IMG/VR virus record: IMGVR_UViG_3300006916_000414
Location: 1 to 23,094 of that record
Reading direction: 5' to 3' (one strand)
Length of the DNA: 23,094 nt
From: a virus
This document shows positions 14,516 to 19,764 of this stretch, in pieces. Within the stretch, counting starts at the first letter, position 1. Each line of letters begins with the position of its first letter. The notes beneath the pieces are model-generated. The model had not been told where the DNA came from. It did not search any database and saw nothing but the letters and a program-made list of their open reading frames with translations. The position numbers were made by a program, and so were the translations under genes.

Positions 14516-16048
14516 CTAGTCTCCCTTCTGATGTAGATCATCCATTCGTAAAGCAGAAACTGGCAAGTACCAATCCACTAATCGTTTTGGCATGTTAGGC
14601 CAGTCTCGGGGTGGATACTTCCAATTGTGGTTTCTTGCAAAGTTTGCGTACAGTTGAGCAAATGTTCGGTGAGGTTTGTATTTCCTTGCACCGTAAACTG
14701 CTCCACTCCACTTACTTTGCAATGATTCAGTTGTTTCTAGCTTTCGACGCTGACGCCATTCCCGTATGTCCATCGCAACAAGTTGACCATTAGTTTGGAT
14801 CACCTTGCGATTAGCCTTTGCCGTTGTTACCTCCCAGCCACACCAAGGGCATTTCTTAAAATCAATTCTTACGCCATCGCAATTTGGGCATGTCAGCGGT
14901 GCTGGTTCATCACCTTCGCGTATCCGCTCATTCCTAATAGCTGCATAGGTCGAATTGGTCATGTTGAGATCCCAGGATCTCGTAGAGTTCAGACTGCCGT
15001 GACGCCAGTAATTCCCGCCATGGTCCTGTATCGTGACTGAGTCAATACTTGGATGGTTTCTTAGCATTCTGCCTCCAGCCTGAATGTAGCTGGTAACACT
15101 TCCAAAGGTTGTAGCAAAAATGCAATGACCTAGCCAAGGCCAATCAATTCCTTCACGTAGCACGTGCCTATTAGTGCAGACTTTTATGTCGCCACTTTTA
15201 CTACGTGCAGCGATCTCGTCGCGAACTTCCTGAGTCGTTGTCACCAACTTGCCGTCCAAATAACAGTTTTCGCCATCAATATGTGCAGCAGAAATACCGC
15301 ATCGGATAAACTCTTTGCAAAGGAACAATGAGCCAGCTACATCAGGTCCAAACAATATCGTTGGGCGACCGTCAGGATTAAGTCTGCGGTAATTTTCAAT
15401 GACACTTCCGTAGATTCTTTGAACATAATCAGCACGTTTGTCGACAGCGATACCGCATTCAGATCCAATCTTAATCTTGCCAGTGACCTTACTGCTGACC
15501 TCACTCGGGGCAAAGTGTTTTGCAGGAACGTGCGATCCACATTCGCGCATTTCTTCGTTAGTACCAGCAACCACTAAATGATCGTAAGCATGACCAATCT
15601 CAAGGGGAGTTGCAGTCCACCCGATCCTGACGCCACCATGTAGCTCTAACAGTTCAAGTGTTTTTCCATTGCTGTTGTTGTGTGCTTCGTCGATATGTTG
15701 AAACTTGCTGTTGTGGATATCTCTGCTTCCATGTTGCATCACAGCAATCTTCTCTGTTTGCAACATTGCTAATTGAGTATCAGCAAGCAAAGCTACCCGA
15801 TGACCACTAGCCCGCCTTCCATAAAAAATATTGGCATCATCTAGGTTACCTGCCAATTGCGAGAACAACATTTTGCGATCGGTGTACAATGTTGATTTGC
15901 GGTTGGCTAATATGTGAGTCATCATCATTCGACTCTTACCAGCACCCGTTGGAGCAGTAATGCAAATCCTTGTCTCGCCAGCGTCAATTAGGTTTTGCAG
16001 TTCGGTTAAACCTCTCACTTGGTGGGGCCAAAGTCCTTCGAAATTCAT
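14516..16048 (-). CDS. DEAD/DEAH-box SF2 helicase with C-terminal zinc ribbon
   Basis: The protein has 510 residues from ATG 16048, 6 nt after GGAG; the in-frame ATG at 16060 has no site. It has an ATP-dependent superfamily 2 helicase core: Walker A 'APTGAGKS' (about 32-39), motif II 'IDEAH' (about 119-123), motif III-like 'GWTATP', then in the second RecA domain 'GIDWPWLGHCIF' and motif VI 'QAGGRMLR'. A CxxC...CxxC zinc ribbon ('CPNCDGVRIDFKKCPWC') follows, then a basic tail. It is probably a DNA unwinding enzyme in phage replication or recombination, as in other siphophage early regions. Its start overlaps the stop of a 42-residue ORF (ATGA). Confidence 0.92.
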   Translation of the reverse strand: MNFEGLWPHQVRGLTELQNLIDAGETRICITAPTGAGKSRMMMTHILANRKSTLYTDRKMLFSQLAGNLDDANIFYGRRASGHRVALLADTQLAMLQTEKIAVMQHGSRDIHNSKFQHIDEAHNNSNGKTLELLELHGGVRIGWTATPLEIGHAYDHLVVAGTNEEMRECGSHVPAKHFAPSEVSSKVTGKIKIGSECGIAVDKRADYVQRIYGSVIENYRRLNPDGRPTILFGPDVAGSLFLCKEFIRCGISAAHIDGENCYLDGKLVTTTQEVRDEIAARSKSGDIKVCTNRHVLREGIDWPWLGHCIFATTFGSVTSYIQAGGRMLRNHPSIDSVTIQDHGGNYWRHGSLNSTRSWDLNMTNSTYAAIRNERIREGDEPAPLTCPNCDGVRIDFKKCPWCGWEVTTAKANRKVIQTNGQLVAMDIREWRQRRKLETTESLQSKWSGAVYGARKYKPHRTFAQLYANFARNHNWKYPPRDWPNMPKRLVDWYLPVSALRMDDLHQKGD

Positions 16049-16173
16049 AGCAGACTCCATTCTTGAAAAAGCAAATTAAAAATGGCTAATCCGTCTTTTG
16101 GGTGGACGCAATTTCGTAGCACTTGTTTTTGGCACTTGTCACCGTCGTAATAAATGTTGTAGAAGTGTTTCAT
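16045..16173 (-). CDS. Possible 42-residue ORF coupled to the helicase
   Basis: The frame from ATG 16173 encodes 42 residues ('MKHFYNIYYDGDKCQKQV' onward, ending 'NLLFQEWSLL') and its stop shares the ATGA with the helicase start, the same coupling used by other genes in this operon. No ribosome site precedes the ATG. Two Cys are present and no known motif is seen. The stop-start overlap is the main support. Confidence 0.4.
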   Translation of the reverse strand: MKHFYNIYYDGDKCQKQVLRNCVHPKDGLAIFNLLFQEWSLL

Positions 16174-16277
16174 TTTGTCGGCACTTGTGGATATATGCCT
16201 ACATTTTGTACTGGATCTCTTCAGTCTGGTCTCGATCCCAGAGACTCCCTCCGACTAGTCGATTCAGAGCCAATCAG

Positions 16278-16790
16278 CTATTTCCTTATGTCAATCGCAT
16301 CAACGCATTCACACAGGTAATCTAAGTCGATAAAGATAAAAAGATCCTTTCTGTCAGGTCTGCCATAAAATTTATTTACAGCGTATCCATATCTGGGTTT
16401 TTCCCGTTTAAAAGAAACGTCATCTGCATGAAGGTATTTAGTCTCAAGAAAATCAACAAGATCAGTTCGAGCAAAAACTTTGAATTCGCCATTGTCCAAT
16501 TCAAAAGCAATGTAATCCGCTTTTCCGTAGATCCAACCTGGGTAACCAGCAATGTTTTTTACTTCGAGTAAAACACTACCTGCCGCATCACATCCACCTT
16601 TGCTTGCCTTTACATCAAACCTATGGACGATGCGATTATCGTTATCAAGTGTCGCCACATCCCAATGTTCTGTTCTATCCTGCTCGTAGGTAGCTTCTCT
16701 GGTCTTGTTGCCACGCTTTTGCAAGATAGCAGCAAATCGATGTTCGCATTTCGTTCCTCGTTTCTCGCACTCAGTTATTCTGCCTTTCAT
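16278..16790 (-). CDS. PD-(D/E)XK-like endonuclease family protein
   Basis: The protein has 170 residues from ATG 16790, 6 nt after AAAGGA. The pattern 'CEHRFAAILQKRG' (Glu16), 'EHWDVA' (Asp44), 'FDVKA' (59-62), 'VLLEVKN' (73-79) and 'GWIYGKADYIAFE' (about 85-97) fits the core of PD-(D/E)XK nucleases and Holliday-junction-resolvase-like phage proteins: an acidic residue after a helix, then an acidic-x-Lys strand. It could cut DNA in packaging, recombination or host degradation; the exact substrate is unknown. It is separated from the helicase by a spacer with a short ORF and inverted repeats. Confidence 0.65.
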   Translation of the reverse strand: MKGRITECEKRGTKCEHRFAAILQKRGNKTREATYEQDRTEHWDVATLDNDNRIVHRFDVKASKGGCDAAGSVLLEVKNIAGYPGWIYGKADYIAFELDNGEFKVFARTDLVDFLETKYLHADDVSFKREKPRYGYAVNKFYGRPDRKDLFIFIDLDYLCECVDAIDIRK

Positions 16791-16965
16791 TCCGAATCCT
16801 TTCAGCATAAGTGCTTAAATCTTCAAGCACATCGTTTAACCTTTCACGCGACTGATTGAATCCGTTCCAGTCAGTTTGTCGATGCAGGCTGTGCAATGTT
16901 TTTACAAGAGTTGATATTTGCTTAAGGGCTGTGTCGATAATTAGGTGTGGTGGTCGTTTGTTCAA
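16771..16965 (-). CDS. Small helical protein, unknown function
   Basis: The protein has 64 residues from TTG 16965, with GGAG and AAGGA just upstream; a longer frame to 17109 would run antiparallel to nothing but overlap the DUF3310 gene by 188 nt. It is helical and charged ('DTALKQISTLVKTLHSLHRQ', 'RERLNDVLEDLSTYAERIRNER'), probably a two-helix hairpin. It overlaps its neighbours by 44 and 20 nt, typical of this operon. No family is recognised. Confidence 0.5.
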   Translation of the reverse strand: MNKRPPHLIIDTALKQISTLVKTLHSLHRQTDWNGFNQSRERLNDVLEDLSTYAERIRNERQNN

Positions 16966-17170
16966 ATTTCCTTGTCTCCCGTTCAATGACTCGATCCAAA
17001 TACCATTTAGCTTTTTCCAGATCATCCAACAATGGCTCGCCTGGTTTGTTACCTGCTCTGCAAACGTACTTGATGACGTTGCCGAGGCAAAAGTCCAAAC
17101 ATTCTGCAATGTCGATTACCTCTGCACCTGTTGACGTGAAGTAATGATCTGGATTTGTTTTATTAGTCAC
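16922..17170 (-). CDS. DUF3310 family protein
   Basis: The protein has 82 residues from GTG 17170, which overlaps the preceding stop. 'NPDHYFTSTGAEVIDIAECLDFCLGNVIKYVCRAGNKPGEPLLDDLEKAKWYLDRVIERE' is the conserved DUF3310 sequence (sometimes called SaV-like or nucleotide-kinase-like) that occurs in many phage early regions. The biochemical role is not established; it usually lies near replication and nucleotide genes, as here. The Thr/Pro/Asn-rich tail after residue 70 is likely flexible. Confidence 0.87.
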   Translation of the reverse strand: MTNKTNPDHYFTSTGAEVIDIAECLDFCLGNVIKYVCRAGNKPGEPLLDDLEKAKWYLDRVIERETRKFEQTTTTPNYRHSP

Positions 17171-17372
17171 TTTGCTCGCCCCAGGTTATCTGAATAATCG
17201 TGCGTTCATCTTTCGACCACAGTTGTTTTGTAGTTACCGACGAAACAAACTCTGGACTGTCGTCGAGCAATACACCTGCGTGAACTAAACCATCGATCAC
17301 TGCTTTCGCAGAAATGTTATCGATATCAATTAGCTTTTTACGAAAGTTAACTATTGTTATCTTTGCTGCCAT
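17163..17372 (-). CDS. rusA: RusA-like Holliday junction resolvase, C-terminal half (split gene)
   Basis: The fragment has 69 residues from ATG 17372. It carries the catalytic half of RusA: 'LIDIDNISAK' gives Asp17, Asp19 and Lys23, and 'GVLLDDSP' gives Asp38. The spacing (+2, +4 and +19 from the second Asp) equals that of Asp70, Asp72, Lys76 and Asp91 in E. coli RusA. The N-terminal strand and helix of RusA are missing here but are encoded at 17799-18029, beyond the HNH gene. The ATG overlaps the HNH end and has a weak GGGG site upstream, so the half may be translated separately. RusA cuts four-way junctions in phage recombination or packaging. Confidence 0.78.
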   Translation of the reverse strand: MAAKITIVNFRKKLIDIDNISAKAVIDGLVHAGVLLDDSPEFVSSVTTKQLWSKDERTIIQITWGEQSD

Positions 17373-17895
17373 TGATCTGCCCCATGTACTCAAAATAGGT
17401 TTTCGAACCTTTCGATGAATTGCATGAACGACAAGCTGGCACGAGATTGCTCGGCCAATTTTGTCCACCTTTAGATAGCGGTATCATGTGATCACACGAC
17501 AACCACCCTTCAGGCGTTTCATGTTTCTCAACACCACAGTAAACACATTTGAAACCGTGGTAAGCTAACCTCTGCTGCCAGTCATTGGCAGTGAAAAATC
17601 CTTTTGCATTAAGACTCCTAGCACGACGGCGATGGCTTTTAGCCCTTATCTTGTCACGGTTCCTTGAAGCGAACCTCGCCACTGCCTCCCTGTGCTTTTC
17701 TTTGTTTCTGCGTTGCCACGCGAGAGCAGTCTTTAAGGTGCATTCTTTGCACACTGACCGCACTCCGTATTTACCTCCTTTGACTTTGTGAAATTTGCTT
17801 ACGGTTTTTTCTTCGCCGCACTTCGAGCATCTTTTAGTTTTTGTTTGTTTCTTTTGCTGGGACGTATTGTCGCCATGTAATCCATTACTAGGCAT
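17347..17895 (-). CDS. HNH endonuclease inserted in the RusA gene
   Basis: The protein has 182 residues. The N-terminal zinc-ribbon-like segment 'RCSKCGEEKTVSKFHKVKGGKYGVRSVCKEC' is common in phage HNH proteins. A very basic helix follows ('RRNKEKHREAVARFASRNRDKIRAKSHRRRAR'), then the HNH core: 'CVYC', 'CDHMIPLSKGG', 'NLVPACRSCNSSKG'. All metal and catalytic residues are in place, so it is probably active, as a homing-type nuclease. Both ends of its frame reuse flanking rusA DNA in another frame. GGAG lies 10 nt before ATG 17895. It separates the two rusA halves, and 504 bp is the net insertion. Confidence 0.88.
   Translation of the reverse strand: MPSNGLHGDNTSQQKKQTKTKRCSKCGEEKTVSKFHKVKGGKYGVRSVCKECTLKTALAWQRRNKEKHREAVARFASRNRDKIRAKSHRRRARSLNAKGFFTANDWQQRLAYHGFKCVYCGVEKHETPEGWLSCDHMIPLSKGGQNWPSNLVPACRSCNSSKGSKTYFEYMGQINGSKDNNS
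17354..17390. repeat. Direct repeat at the downstream HNH boundary
   Basis: This 37-nt segment matches 17845-17881 at 24 positions. TTTGCTG (17362-17368) and CCATGTA (17382-17388) occur in both copies at the same 20-nt spacing. It covers the point where the rusA C-terminal half resumes. Confidence 0.5.
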
Positions 17896-18029
17896 TCGTC
17901 AAACACTCCATCGTTGACTGCCGCTGCGATTATTTTATGCATCAGATCCCTAACCTTTTTCCGCTTCCAGTGGTTAGCTGACAGCAGGAAGTTCCATGAA
18001 GGTAGTGGAACTGGTATTTCGATTGTCAA
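17799..18029 (-). CDS. rusA: RusA-like resolvase, N-terminal half (split gene)
   Basis: The fragment has 76 residues from TTG 18029, which overlaps the stop of the small membrane protein; GGGAG lies 2 nt and GAGAG 11 nt upstream. Residues 1-41 match the start of RusA: strand 'TIEIPVPLPSWN', then 'SANHWKRKKVRDLMHKIIAAAVNDG', the helix before the second strand. The reading frame then runs through 'VFDECLVMDYMA' and becomes a basic tail encoded by DNA of the HNH gene. The catalytic Asp residues are absent here and lie on the C-terminal half (17163-17372). Joining Tyr51 of this half to Met1 of the other gives 120 residues, the length of E. coli RusA. Confidence 0.7.
   Translation of the reverse strand: MTIEIPVPLPSWNFLLSANHWKRKKVRDLMHKIIAAAVNDGVFDECLVMDYMATIRPSKRNKQKLKDARSAAKKKP
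17845..17881. repeat. Direct repeat at the upstream HNH boundary
   Basis: This is the partner of 17354-17390. TTTGCTG is at 17853-17859 and CCATGTA at 17873-17879. The minus-strand ATG inside it (17874-17876) is in the rusA frame and lies 504 bp from the ATG of the C-terminal half. Confidence 0.5.
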
Positions 18030-18190
18030 GTCTCCCGATTCTCTCGCCTTAATTTTGCAAGCTCGTGTAAAACTGAAAGAATAAACCACAATGCCAACGG
18101 TATCACCGCCCATGCAGCATGATAGGCACAGACGATGATAACCGTCAGCAACGAAAAAAAAGCAAAACTATCTAGGAATTGCCTGTACAT
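18026..18190 (-). CDS. Small two-span membrane protein
   Basis: A 54-residue frame from ATG 18190. Two apolar stretches, 'FAFFSLLTVIIVCAYHAAW' (about 9-27) and 'AVIPLALWFILSVLHEL' (about 28-44), form a tight membrane hairpin; the C-terminus is basic and charged ('AKLRRENRET'). It begins 2 nt after the ssb stop, and its stop overlaps the rusA TTG start, so it is probably translationally coupled to both neighbours. No ribosome site is visible. It might be a holin-like, antiholin or superinfection-exclusion protein, but nothing in the sequence decides between them and it is not next to an endolysin. Confidence 0.5.
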   Translation of the reverse strand: MYRQFLDSFAFFSLLTVIIVCAYHAAWAVIPLALWFILSVLHELAKLRRENRET

Positions 18191-18192
18191 AA

Positions 18193-18585
18193 TTAAAAAG
18201 GGATGTCCGCTGTTGAAGGAGAGGTAGCAGAGTTAGAGGATGAATTGCTGCCACCCGAACCTGAGCCTAACAACACCAAACGATCCCCTTGTATTTTGTG
18301 CTTTGATCGATTAGCACCCGTGTCCCTGTCTTGCCAGTTATCTTGTTTCAGGCGACCCTCAACCAAACATGGCGACCCTTTTTTAAGGTACTCGCCAGCA
18401 ATTTCTGCCGTCCGACCCCAAAACGTGACATCTATGTAGGTGGTTTCTTCGCACCACTCACCATTGCGTTTTACGCGATCGTTCACCGCCAGGCGAAGAT
18501 CAGTGACACACGAATCACCAACTTGCCTCAACTCAACGTCAGCACATAGATTACCAACCAAAACAGAACGATTAAAACTAGCCAT
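18193..18585 (-). CDS. ssb: Single-stranded DNA-binding protein
   Basis: The protein has 130 residues from ATG 18585, with AGGAG about 9 nt upstream; the ATG overlaps the preceding stop (TAATG). The OB fold of bacterial-type SSB is clear: 'SFNRSVLVGNLCADVELRQV', 'VTDLRLAVNDRVKRNGEWCEETTYIDVTFWGRTAEIAGEYLKKGSPCLVEGRLKQDNW'. A Ser/Gly/Asn linker (about 107-125) leads to the acidic tip 'ADIPF', which recruits partner proteins. It coats single-stranded DNA during replication and recombination, together with the exonuclease, helicase and resolvase in this operon. Confidence 0.95.
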   Translation of the reverse strand: MASFNRSVLVGNLCADVELRQVGDSCVTDLRLAVNDRVKRNGEWCEETTYIDVTFWGRTAEIAGEYLKKGSPCLVEGRLKQDNWQDRDTGANRSKHKIQGDRLVLLGSGSGGSNSSSNSATSPSTADIPF

Positions 18586-18929
18586 TACTTTTTACTCCTA
18601 ACTCGAATGCAATCTTTAATTTCCTTACCAAGTCGCGTTTTGTCTCGAACAAGAACCACTTCCTTGCCGATCCATTTACTCGCATCGCGACCGTGAATCG
18701 CCGCAATCAGTTTGCCGTTGCTCTTGTTCATGATAAATGGCAATGGCTTTTCCACCTCCCCACCTTTCACAATGTAATGCACAACTGGTTTATACTGCTT
18801 CTCTGCTTTACCTGGCAACTGCATTTCCACCTTCGCATCAATACGTCTGATTTCAATCAGAAGTCCTTTTTCAGGAAGATGAAACCATCGCAGGTAGTTA
18901 CTGTCAAAAAGACTCTCAAAATCAACCAC
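18585..18929 (-). CDS. Conserved phage protein upstream of ssb
   Basis: The protein has 114 residues. 'MVDFESLFDSNYLRWFHLPEKGLLIEIRRIDAKVE' at the start and 'PFIMNKSNGKLIAAIHGRDASKWIGKEVVLVRDKTRLGKEIKDCIRVRSKK' at the end match a conserved protein I recognise in many phage recombination or replication clusters near SSB and exonuclease genes. The beta-rich fold resembles an OB-type domain, and the basic C-terminus could touch DNA. No experimental role is known to me. It overlaps the exonuclease by 8 nt and ssb by 1 nt. Confidence 0.7.
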   Translation of the reverse strand: MVDFESLFDSNYLRWFHLPEKGLLIEIRRIDAKVEMQLPGKAEKQYKPVVHYIVKGGEVEKPLPFIMNKSNGKLIAAIHGRDASKWIGKEVVLVRDKTRLGKEIKDCIRVRSKK

Positions 18930-19764
18930 CGTAATCTACCTCCGTATGATCATGGTTAAGCCAAATCCAATCAGCACCTTCGTCCTGACCAATGTTAAAA
19001 GCAACCTCTTTGTATCGCTTGTAACGCTCGATGCATACGTCAATGTCGTCGCGAGCCTTATCGAGCCACTCGACAGGTATTCTGAAAACCGTAACGTCAA
19101 TAGGAGACTGTTTCCCAGCAGCAATGATGTAGCACTGGTCTAATGGAAATTCATAGCCGTTTTGCCATGCCAACTCGATGTACCATCGCAACTGGAAGCC
19201 ATAGCCGTATCGAAAAAATGCTCGTCGAAACTCACGAATCGATGAGTCTCTTGTGGTCTTTAAATCAAACAACAGGGAGTCAGATATACCATCTGCCAAT
19301 CCTTTGATCGGCACACCTGACCACAGACCATCCATAGCTGCCTGCGTAATCCCTGATGTGTCATTAGTGAAGTTCTGAAAAAACTTCTTGCGTTTAACCT
19401 GCTCCGCAACCGAGGCACAGAAGGTCCACTCATCCTTGGTGATAAATGTCTTACCCTGATTCTCTTTAGCGAATTCAGACATCTTCTGCTTCACGTAACC
19501 AGTTCGGTTGCTGGTCGAAGGTTTCCCATCAGCCGTCACGTTGCCAGTGCAGTTGGCATAGTCAGGTGGTATCACAAACTGCTCGTTAACCAAGTCTGGA
19601 GTTAAAACCATAACGTCGATTAAACTGCCTACCCGAAACGCATCACTGGTCGCTGGAGGTGGCTCTAAATAAGCTAGACCGCTCTTGAGCAACCTCTTTG
19701 CCATTGACTGCGACAGTCCGCTCATGTCGCGATACTGCTGATCTGGGATGTTATAAATACCCAT
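18922..19764 (-). CDS. RecE/DUF3799-type PD-(D/E)XK exonuclease
   Basis: The protein has 280 residues from ATG 19764, preceded by AGGAG within the overlapping upstream gene. 'YNIPDQQYRDMSGLSQSMAKRLLKSGLAYLEPP' is the typical start of putative exodeoxyribonuclease VIII-like proteins. The nuclease core shows 'PIKGLADGI' (Asp158), 'LLFDLKTT' (Asp167, Lys169) and the later 'YGYGFQLRWYIE' helix with its Gln. The usual G-x-x-x-H motif appears as 'GSLIDVMVL', with Asp where His is common, so metal use or activity may differ. It probably resects double-stranded ends for annealing. No RecT-like annealase was recognised nearby. Confidence 0.85.
   Translation of the reverse strand: MGIYNIPDQQYRDMSGLSQSMAKRLLKSGLAYLEPPPATSDAFRVGSLIDVMVLTPDLVNEQFVIPPDYANCTGNVTADGKPSTSNRTGYVKQKMSEFAKENQGKTFITKDEWTFCASVAEQVKRKKFFQNFTNDTSGITQAAMDGLWSGVPIKGLADGISDSLLFDLKTTRDSSIREFRRAFFRYGYGFQLRWYIELAWQNGYEFPLDQCYIIAAGKQSPIDVTVFRIPVEWLDKARDDIDVCIERYKRYKEVAFNIGQDEGADWIWLNHDHTEVDYGG

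Follow-up and report, generated by a model that had tools for sequence, protein, structure and literature searches.

The resolvase RusA of the virus studied here is probably made as two chains. The DNA analysed is a stretch of 23,094 nucleotides (positions 1 to 23,094 of the IMG/VR virus record IMGVR_UViG_3300006916_000414), which we call the window. We suggest that the division of RusA into two chains is old, that the two genes ancestrally overlapped each other and were later un-stacked in the lineage of the window, and that a gene for an HNH endonuclease now lies at their junction.

Layout of the rusA locus

On the minus strand of the window ORF A is followed by the HNH gene and then by ORF B. 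Gene A (17799..18029, minus strand) is an ORF of 76 amino acids with a TTG start 5 nt 3' of the sequence GGGAG. It appears to code for the N-terminal half of RusA, that is strand 1 and helix 1, and for a C-terminal tail of its own. Within this tail lies the motif DYMATIRP (17859..17882, minus strand), which corresponds to EYLxMIRP in the relatives and is recognised by its conservation across the A proteins. The HNH endonuclease gene (17347..17895, minus strand) encodes 182 amino acids with Cys pairs in the N-terminal part and, as assigned with Pfam and PHROG, an HNH domain in the C-terminal part. Gene B (17163..17372, minus strand; 69 amino acids) codes for the C-terminal catalytic half of RusA according to Pfam, PHROG and an AlphaFold model.

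The HNH gene starts within A and ends within B. By frame arithmetic its 5' end shares 97 nt with the A tail (17799..17895, minus strand), and by the ORF coordinates its 3' end shares 26 nt with the start of B (17347..17372, minus strand). Over the A tail the HNH gene is read in the -1 frame of A, which is the frame of B in those relatives where A and B overlap. A preliminary description of this DNA had named the two minus-strand rusA pieces and the HNH ORF between them and had noticed that the start and stop of the HNH gene lie inside rusA DNA read in another frame; all of this we can confirm. The same arrangement is found in a near-identical record (L001, 99.9% identity over 12 kb).

The surroundings of A and B (14516-19764, minus strand) are a recombination cassette consisting of a helicase (phrog_16), a DUF3310 protein, the A/HNH/B genes, a single-strand binding protein (SSB) and a DUF3799/exonuclease VIII-like protein. 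The cassette also contains an ORF of 176 amino acids (16278-16808, minus strand) which has no PHROG match and an unconvincing Pfam match; by eye its residues E...HWDV...DVKASK look like those of a PD-(D/E)XK nuclease. A hydrophobic ORF of 54 amino acids (18026-18190, minus strand) ends with a stop codon that overlaps the TTG start of A, and a comparable small ORF is present at the same place in the related locus L002.

RusA homology of B and, probably, of A

The assignment of B is based on several comparisons. B matches the Pfam RusA family with an E-value of 6.5e-05 and 24.0 bits at a cut-off of 22.8, the joined A-B sequence reaching 22.7, and five relatives have no Pfam RusA match. B matches phrog_34 with 6.2e-11, and PHROG RusA families match in all cases tested. 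Profile-profile comparison of B with single-chain RusA gives a strong match (8e-19). The spacing of Asp, Asp, Lys and Asp known from E. coli RusA, to which the preliminary description had drawn attention, is indeed present as D16, D18, K23 and D38 (17257..17327, minus strand). By motif spacing and structural alignment these putative catalytic residues correspond to D70, D72, K76 and D91 of the E. coli protein. Among 54 B proteins D16, K23 and D38 are invariant, and D18 is found in at least 90%. The AlphaFold model of B (pLDDT 87) superimposes on E. coli RusA (1q8r) over residues 53-118 only, with a Z score of 6.2, an rmsd of 2.3 over 64 residues and 30% identity. The top three structural matches are all RusA entries (Z 6.2-5.7, residues 53-120), the modest Z scores being expected for half a domain. 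Matches of B and of the joined A-B sequence to PDB sequences of designer PPR proteins were dismissed as repeat-consensus artefacts.

B is thus the second half of the fold, and we asked whether A fits the first. A alone gives no good match to the RusA families. When the N-terminal half of A is joined to B, the score against phrog_1682 rises in 6/6 cases, by 5.2 to 11.6 bits: in the window from 27.3 for B alone to 34.4, and in five others from 32.4 to 44.0, 21.2 to 30.7, 23.5 to 28.7, 14.2 to 20.0 and 30.2 to 37.6. Every time the joined match begins at profile positions 30-34, the expected start. Ten shuffled N-terminal halves, which served as control, shift the score by only -1.9 to +2.5 bits. 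In profile-profile comparison A aligns with single-chain RusA at the right position, with a weak score (p about 0.015-0.03). The A model (pLDDT 80) has an extended N-terminal segment and helices; its structural comparison with a Foldseek pre-list of 63 chains yielded unspecific helical matches and no RusA. Taken together, we think it quite likely that A is the N-terminal half of RusA carrying a new tail.

Related loci with overlapping genes

The clade comprises 83 loci, mostly on metagenomic contigs, many of them from IMG/VR. In 80 of these loci A and B overlap, in three they are separated (the window with L001, L002 and L037), and in none are they fused in one frame. An uninterrupted rusA, as could be expected if a single gene had been split, was looked for and is absent from all 83 loci. 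The 80 distinct overlapping loci belong to divergent viruses and prophages and are free of the HNH gene. A and B lie almost completely on top of each other in different frames, and B is in the -1 frame of A in 80/80 loci.

Three loci come from metagenome-assembled genomes (MAGs) of bacteria, namely of Methylophaga, of another gammaproteobacterium and of Kiritimatiellae. In the Methylophaga locus (L110) the A/B pair is located downstream of NinB and YbcO and upstream of the terminase. Lambdoid phages carry rus at the matching position. Among named phages the pair was found only in vir555, where the HNH gene is lacking, and a search of plasmids found no A/B pair. In the vir555 record (BK063671, L003:2832-3293) the RusA catalytic half is unannotated; the one ORF called there is the overlapping A frame, listed as a hypothetical protein. 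A sequencing error as the cause of the frame offset in vir555 can be ruled out, the same offset being present in 80 loci. Probably, gene callers generally overlook one member of the pair in this clade.

Both frames are under amino-acid constraint over the same DNA in the overlapping relatives. As a null model for open frames we replaced the first 40 core codons of B by synonymous ones, drawn according to the codon usage found in these loci. This predicts an open A frame in 5.9 of the 80 loci and an open third frame in 0.95; observed were 80 and 0. Conservation of the A-frame residues beyond that imposed by the B codons reaches z = 10.6 in a first set (n = 16), where the third frame has 2.0; in two larger sets with genome-derived codon usage the values are 20.9 against 5.5 and 25.0 against 6.1. 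The null ignores phylogeny, and the third-frame value gives the share due to common descent alone. The A-frame signal has its maximum at the motif EYLxMIRP (Y, z 9.7; R, z 8.8; P, z 6.6), the DNA of which encodes G-I-L-x-D-D-S in B. In 54 aligned A proteins Y51 is invariant and I55, R56 and P57 occur in at least 90%; the strict pattern Y...IRP is present in 57/80 loci. The tail of A with Y...IRP and a basic end is also retained in L037, L002 and the window, where it does not overlap the B core.

In the B frame amino-acid conservation begins about 8 residues before strand 2, and further upstream, including the region of the N-terminal half, it is no higher than in the null model. The B frame upstream of its conserved part is open in 55/59 loci, with 34 expected. 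The start of B may therefore often lie shortly before that of A, giving B a leader under little constraint, and in a few loci it may lie within A.

Separated loci and selection on both halves

L002 shares about 73% nucleotide identity with the window in alignable DNA and has the order A, a related HNH gene, an extra ORF of 155 amino acids, and B. A is 74% and B 62% identical in amino acids between the two, with saturated synonymous sites. The pN/pS ratios are 0.21 for A and 0.30 for B, and neither gene has acquired frameshifts or stops. Both RusA halves are under purifying selection. As A and B recur in L002 at this distance, the A/HNH/B arrangement is not due to chance. Moreover, A and B are kept at least as well as the neighbouring genes for SSB (54% identity) and helicase (55%), which makes a decay of the two halves unlikely.

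The extra ORF of L002 (L002:4480-4947) sits exactly at the junction of HNH gene and B, and its ATGGCA overlaps the HNH stop. It has neither a Pfam nor a PHROG match; by eye we recognise a PD...E-x-E pattern as in some PD-(D/E)XK nucleases. A second nuclease may thus have joined this spot in L002.

In L037 A and B are adjacent, without the HNH gene and with nothing between them. Here (L037:3775-4186) the ATG start of B is within the A tail and the B core starts directly after the A stop. L037 is possibly an independent un-stacking of the A/B overlap. The offsets from A to B in the three separated loci are 0, 1 and 2 mod 3.

The HNH gene at the junction

The HNH protein is well supported (Pfam HNH 6.8e-12, HNH_5 6.9e-12; phrog_1035 4.5e-39). 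It is 50% identical between the window and L002, and the catalytic and Cys motifs are retained. Among the phage relatives listed best, which are annotated as HNH endonuclease or endonuclease VII, identity is about 29-35%.

A search of positions 17000-18200 against Rfam gave no match with E up to 1 and thus no intron core, in line with the preliminary description, which had noticed no group I core either. A group I or group II intron was rejected for this reason and because the stretch is almost wholly coding. An intein was rejected as well, the HNH gene being out of frame with A (in its -1 frame) and A having its own stop. These results favour an HNH gene that stands on its own at the A/B junction. 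Its role in homing is putative. At its start the HNH gene reads NGLHGDNTS where B would read AGILEDDSP. This might be the trace of a duplicated copy of B; the constraint on A alone would give part of the likeness.

The preliminary description had further pointed to an ATGGC at 17876 and another at 17372, 504 nt apart, whose joining gives an open frame of 120 residues. Sites and frame are as described. The distance of 168 codons was taken as meaningful, which it is not: in L002 the corresponding ATGGC sites are separated by 1052 nt, and as an ATG stands in frame at both of them any distance would rejoin in frame, so that the figure of 504 carries no weight. A frame-restoring excision of 504 nt does not hold up either. 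What follows the first ATGGC (MATIRPSKRNKQKL...) is the A tail, which is conserved in relatives that have no insert and no HNH gene. Positions 17799-17876, taken for part of an insert, are therefore the end of a conserved protein.

Alternative explanations

In the reading of the preliminary description, rusA was once an intact single-chain gene and was split when an HNH homing nuclease invaded it. The HNH gene does lie between the halves both in the window and in L002, and splits made by nucleases are known from phage nrdA and T4 gene 60 (PMC2988022). Yet no single-frame version exists in the 83 loci, and the 80 overlapping loci and L037 are already in two pieces without any HNH gene. Furthermore, what would be the insert after ATGGC codes for the conserved A tail. 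We regard this explanation as very improbable. We give next to no credence to the idea that rusA is dead here and that the halves are decaying remnants. The ORFs are indeed short and overlap the HNH gene, but the identities of 74% and 62% to L002 at saturated synonymous sites, the low pN/pS ratios and the lack of frameshifts and stops speak against it, and all putative catalytic residues are retained. Three fates had been proposed for the invaded gene, that RusA works as two chains, that the RNA is spliced, or that rusA was lost. With RusA as two ORFs, the HNH gene between them and both halves under selection, two chains are the best of the three; splicing finds no support in Rfam, and loss is at odds with the pN/pS ratios.

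Two other explanations start from the overlap itself. In one, B is part of a fusion protein with A, which the overlapping viruses would produce by programmed -1 ribosomal frameshifting and the virus of the window by bypassing or splicing. In favour of this, the -1 relation is constant in 80/80 loci, a heptamer XXXYYYZ occurs in 9/59 loci (six of the nine in the codons of the conserved R-K-K), and a -1 site CGA AAG is known in IS1222, as cited in PMC10885494. On the other hand, 50/59 loci have no classical slippery heptamer and none is conserved, as far as a scan for XXXYYYZ goes. In addition A is constrained far beyond any slip point, the separated loci display all three offsets, and a fusion would lose helix 1, the DNA of which overlaps strand 2 of B. 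A frameshift product is in our view quite improbable. Finally, A might be an unrelated small partner or regulator overprinted on rusA, with B alone being a minimal RusA. That A alone has no good family match and that the profile-profile support for homology of the N-terminal half is weak would fit such a partner. It does not explain why the N-terminal half of A raises the RusA profile score in 6/6 cases at the expected start and shuffled sequences do not. B moreover lacks residues 1-52 of the fold, and its frame has no amino-acid conservation over the region of the N-terminal half. We consider an unrelated A unlikely.

A proposed model for the two-chain RusA and its history

We favour two chains encoded by formerly overlapping genes and suggest that they work as follows. 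Gene A would supply the N-terminal strand and helix together with a small basic tail, and gene B the remainder of the fold, in which all four putative catalytic residues lie. The two chains would together make up a single RusA fold, and two of these assemblies could form the usual dimer that cleaves four-way DNA junctions. Both the assembly of A with B and the junction-resolving activity are inferred.

The split would be old, as A and B overlap in related viruses with the B core in the -1 frame of A. In the lineage of the window the two genes presumably came apart, probably through an event resembling a duplication, after which A lay upstream and B downstream; at most faint traces of such a duplication can be made out in the sequence. 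The HNH gene occupies the junction but would not have created the split; the simplest view is that it encodes a free-standing nuclease of the homing type which spreads its own site. A tree built from the joined sequences sets the two-chain clade apart from single-chain RusA (99/97), and the window and L002 fall inside a set of overlapping-type loci (95/84) with L037 elsewhere, the alignment having few columns. The position of the window and L002 apart from L037 suggests, within the limits of this short alignment, that separation happened more than once. The order of events, overlap before separation, seems tentatively indicated. Single-chain RusA proteins share the B segment that lies under the tail (A-G-x-L-x-D-D). 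The simplest assumption is therefore that the A tail was overprinted on B and that the separation of the genes followed later.

We are inclined, with some reserve, to extend this to the whole clade. At least 80 viruses and prophages would then encode one RusA fold as two complementary halves, with the same nucleotides read in two frames. The halves would form an obligate two-chain resolvase, the N-terminal chain of which carries a functional tail gained by overprinting the catalytic core. The overlap would have been undone in a few lineages including that of the window, where the freed junction carries a homing-type nuclease gene.

Comparison with known systems

With E. coli RusA (PDB 1q8r, 2h8c) the proteins have in common the fold of residues 53-118 and the D, D, K, D set in B, and the N-terminal half of A fits the part that B lacks. 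Known RusA consists of a single chain. Here there are two genes, with dual coding in the overlapping relatives, and A carries the additional tail with Y...IRP and basic residues. We found no report of a split, overlapping or dual-coded RusA in the open-licence literature. The work on PRFect mentions frameshifted RusA/RuvC in passing and cites work on ruvC.

Two partner proteins from one DNA stretch in two frames are also found in phage lambda. The overlapping pair Rz/Rz1 encodes interacting products which are separate lysis proteins. A and B, in contrast, look like complementary halves of one enzyme fold.

Edgell and colleagues describe Aeh1 nrdA and T4 gene 60 as splits made by nucleases (PMC2988022). 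In phage Aeh1 nrdA is in pieces with the HNH gene mobE between them. As in our case, the HNH gene lies between two ORFs of one enzyme and both pieces are selected. There the gene was split by insertion of the nuclease; here relatives free of the nuclease have the split too, and none is fused. For the DNA polymerase gene 43 of phages 25 and 44RR the same authors discuss that a seg nuclease possibly invaded a gene already split (PMC2988022). Among their cases the window appears closest to gene 43 of phage 25, where a homing-type nuclease likewise is located at the junction of a gene that is split in relatives without the nuclease. The enzyme is a different one, and in phages 25 and 44RR the pieces are separated by untranslated sequence and do not overlap.

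If our reading is correct, one small enzyme domain is formed from two chains which are mostly encoded on the same DNA in two frames. The clade would then allow tests of how overlapping genes come into being, constrain one another and separate again. Our reading would also mean that gene callers miss such A/B pairs, the catalytic half being unannotated in the single GenBank record found (vir555), and that a nuclease gene between the halves of a gene need not be the cause of the split.
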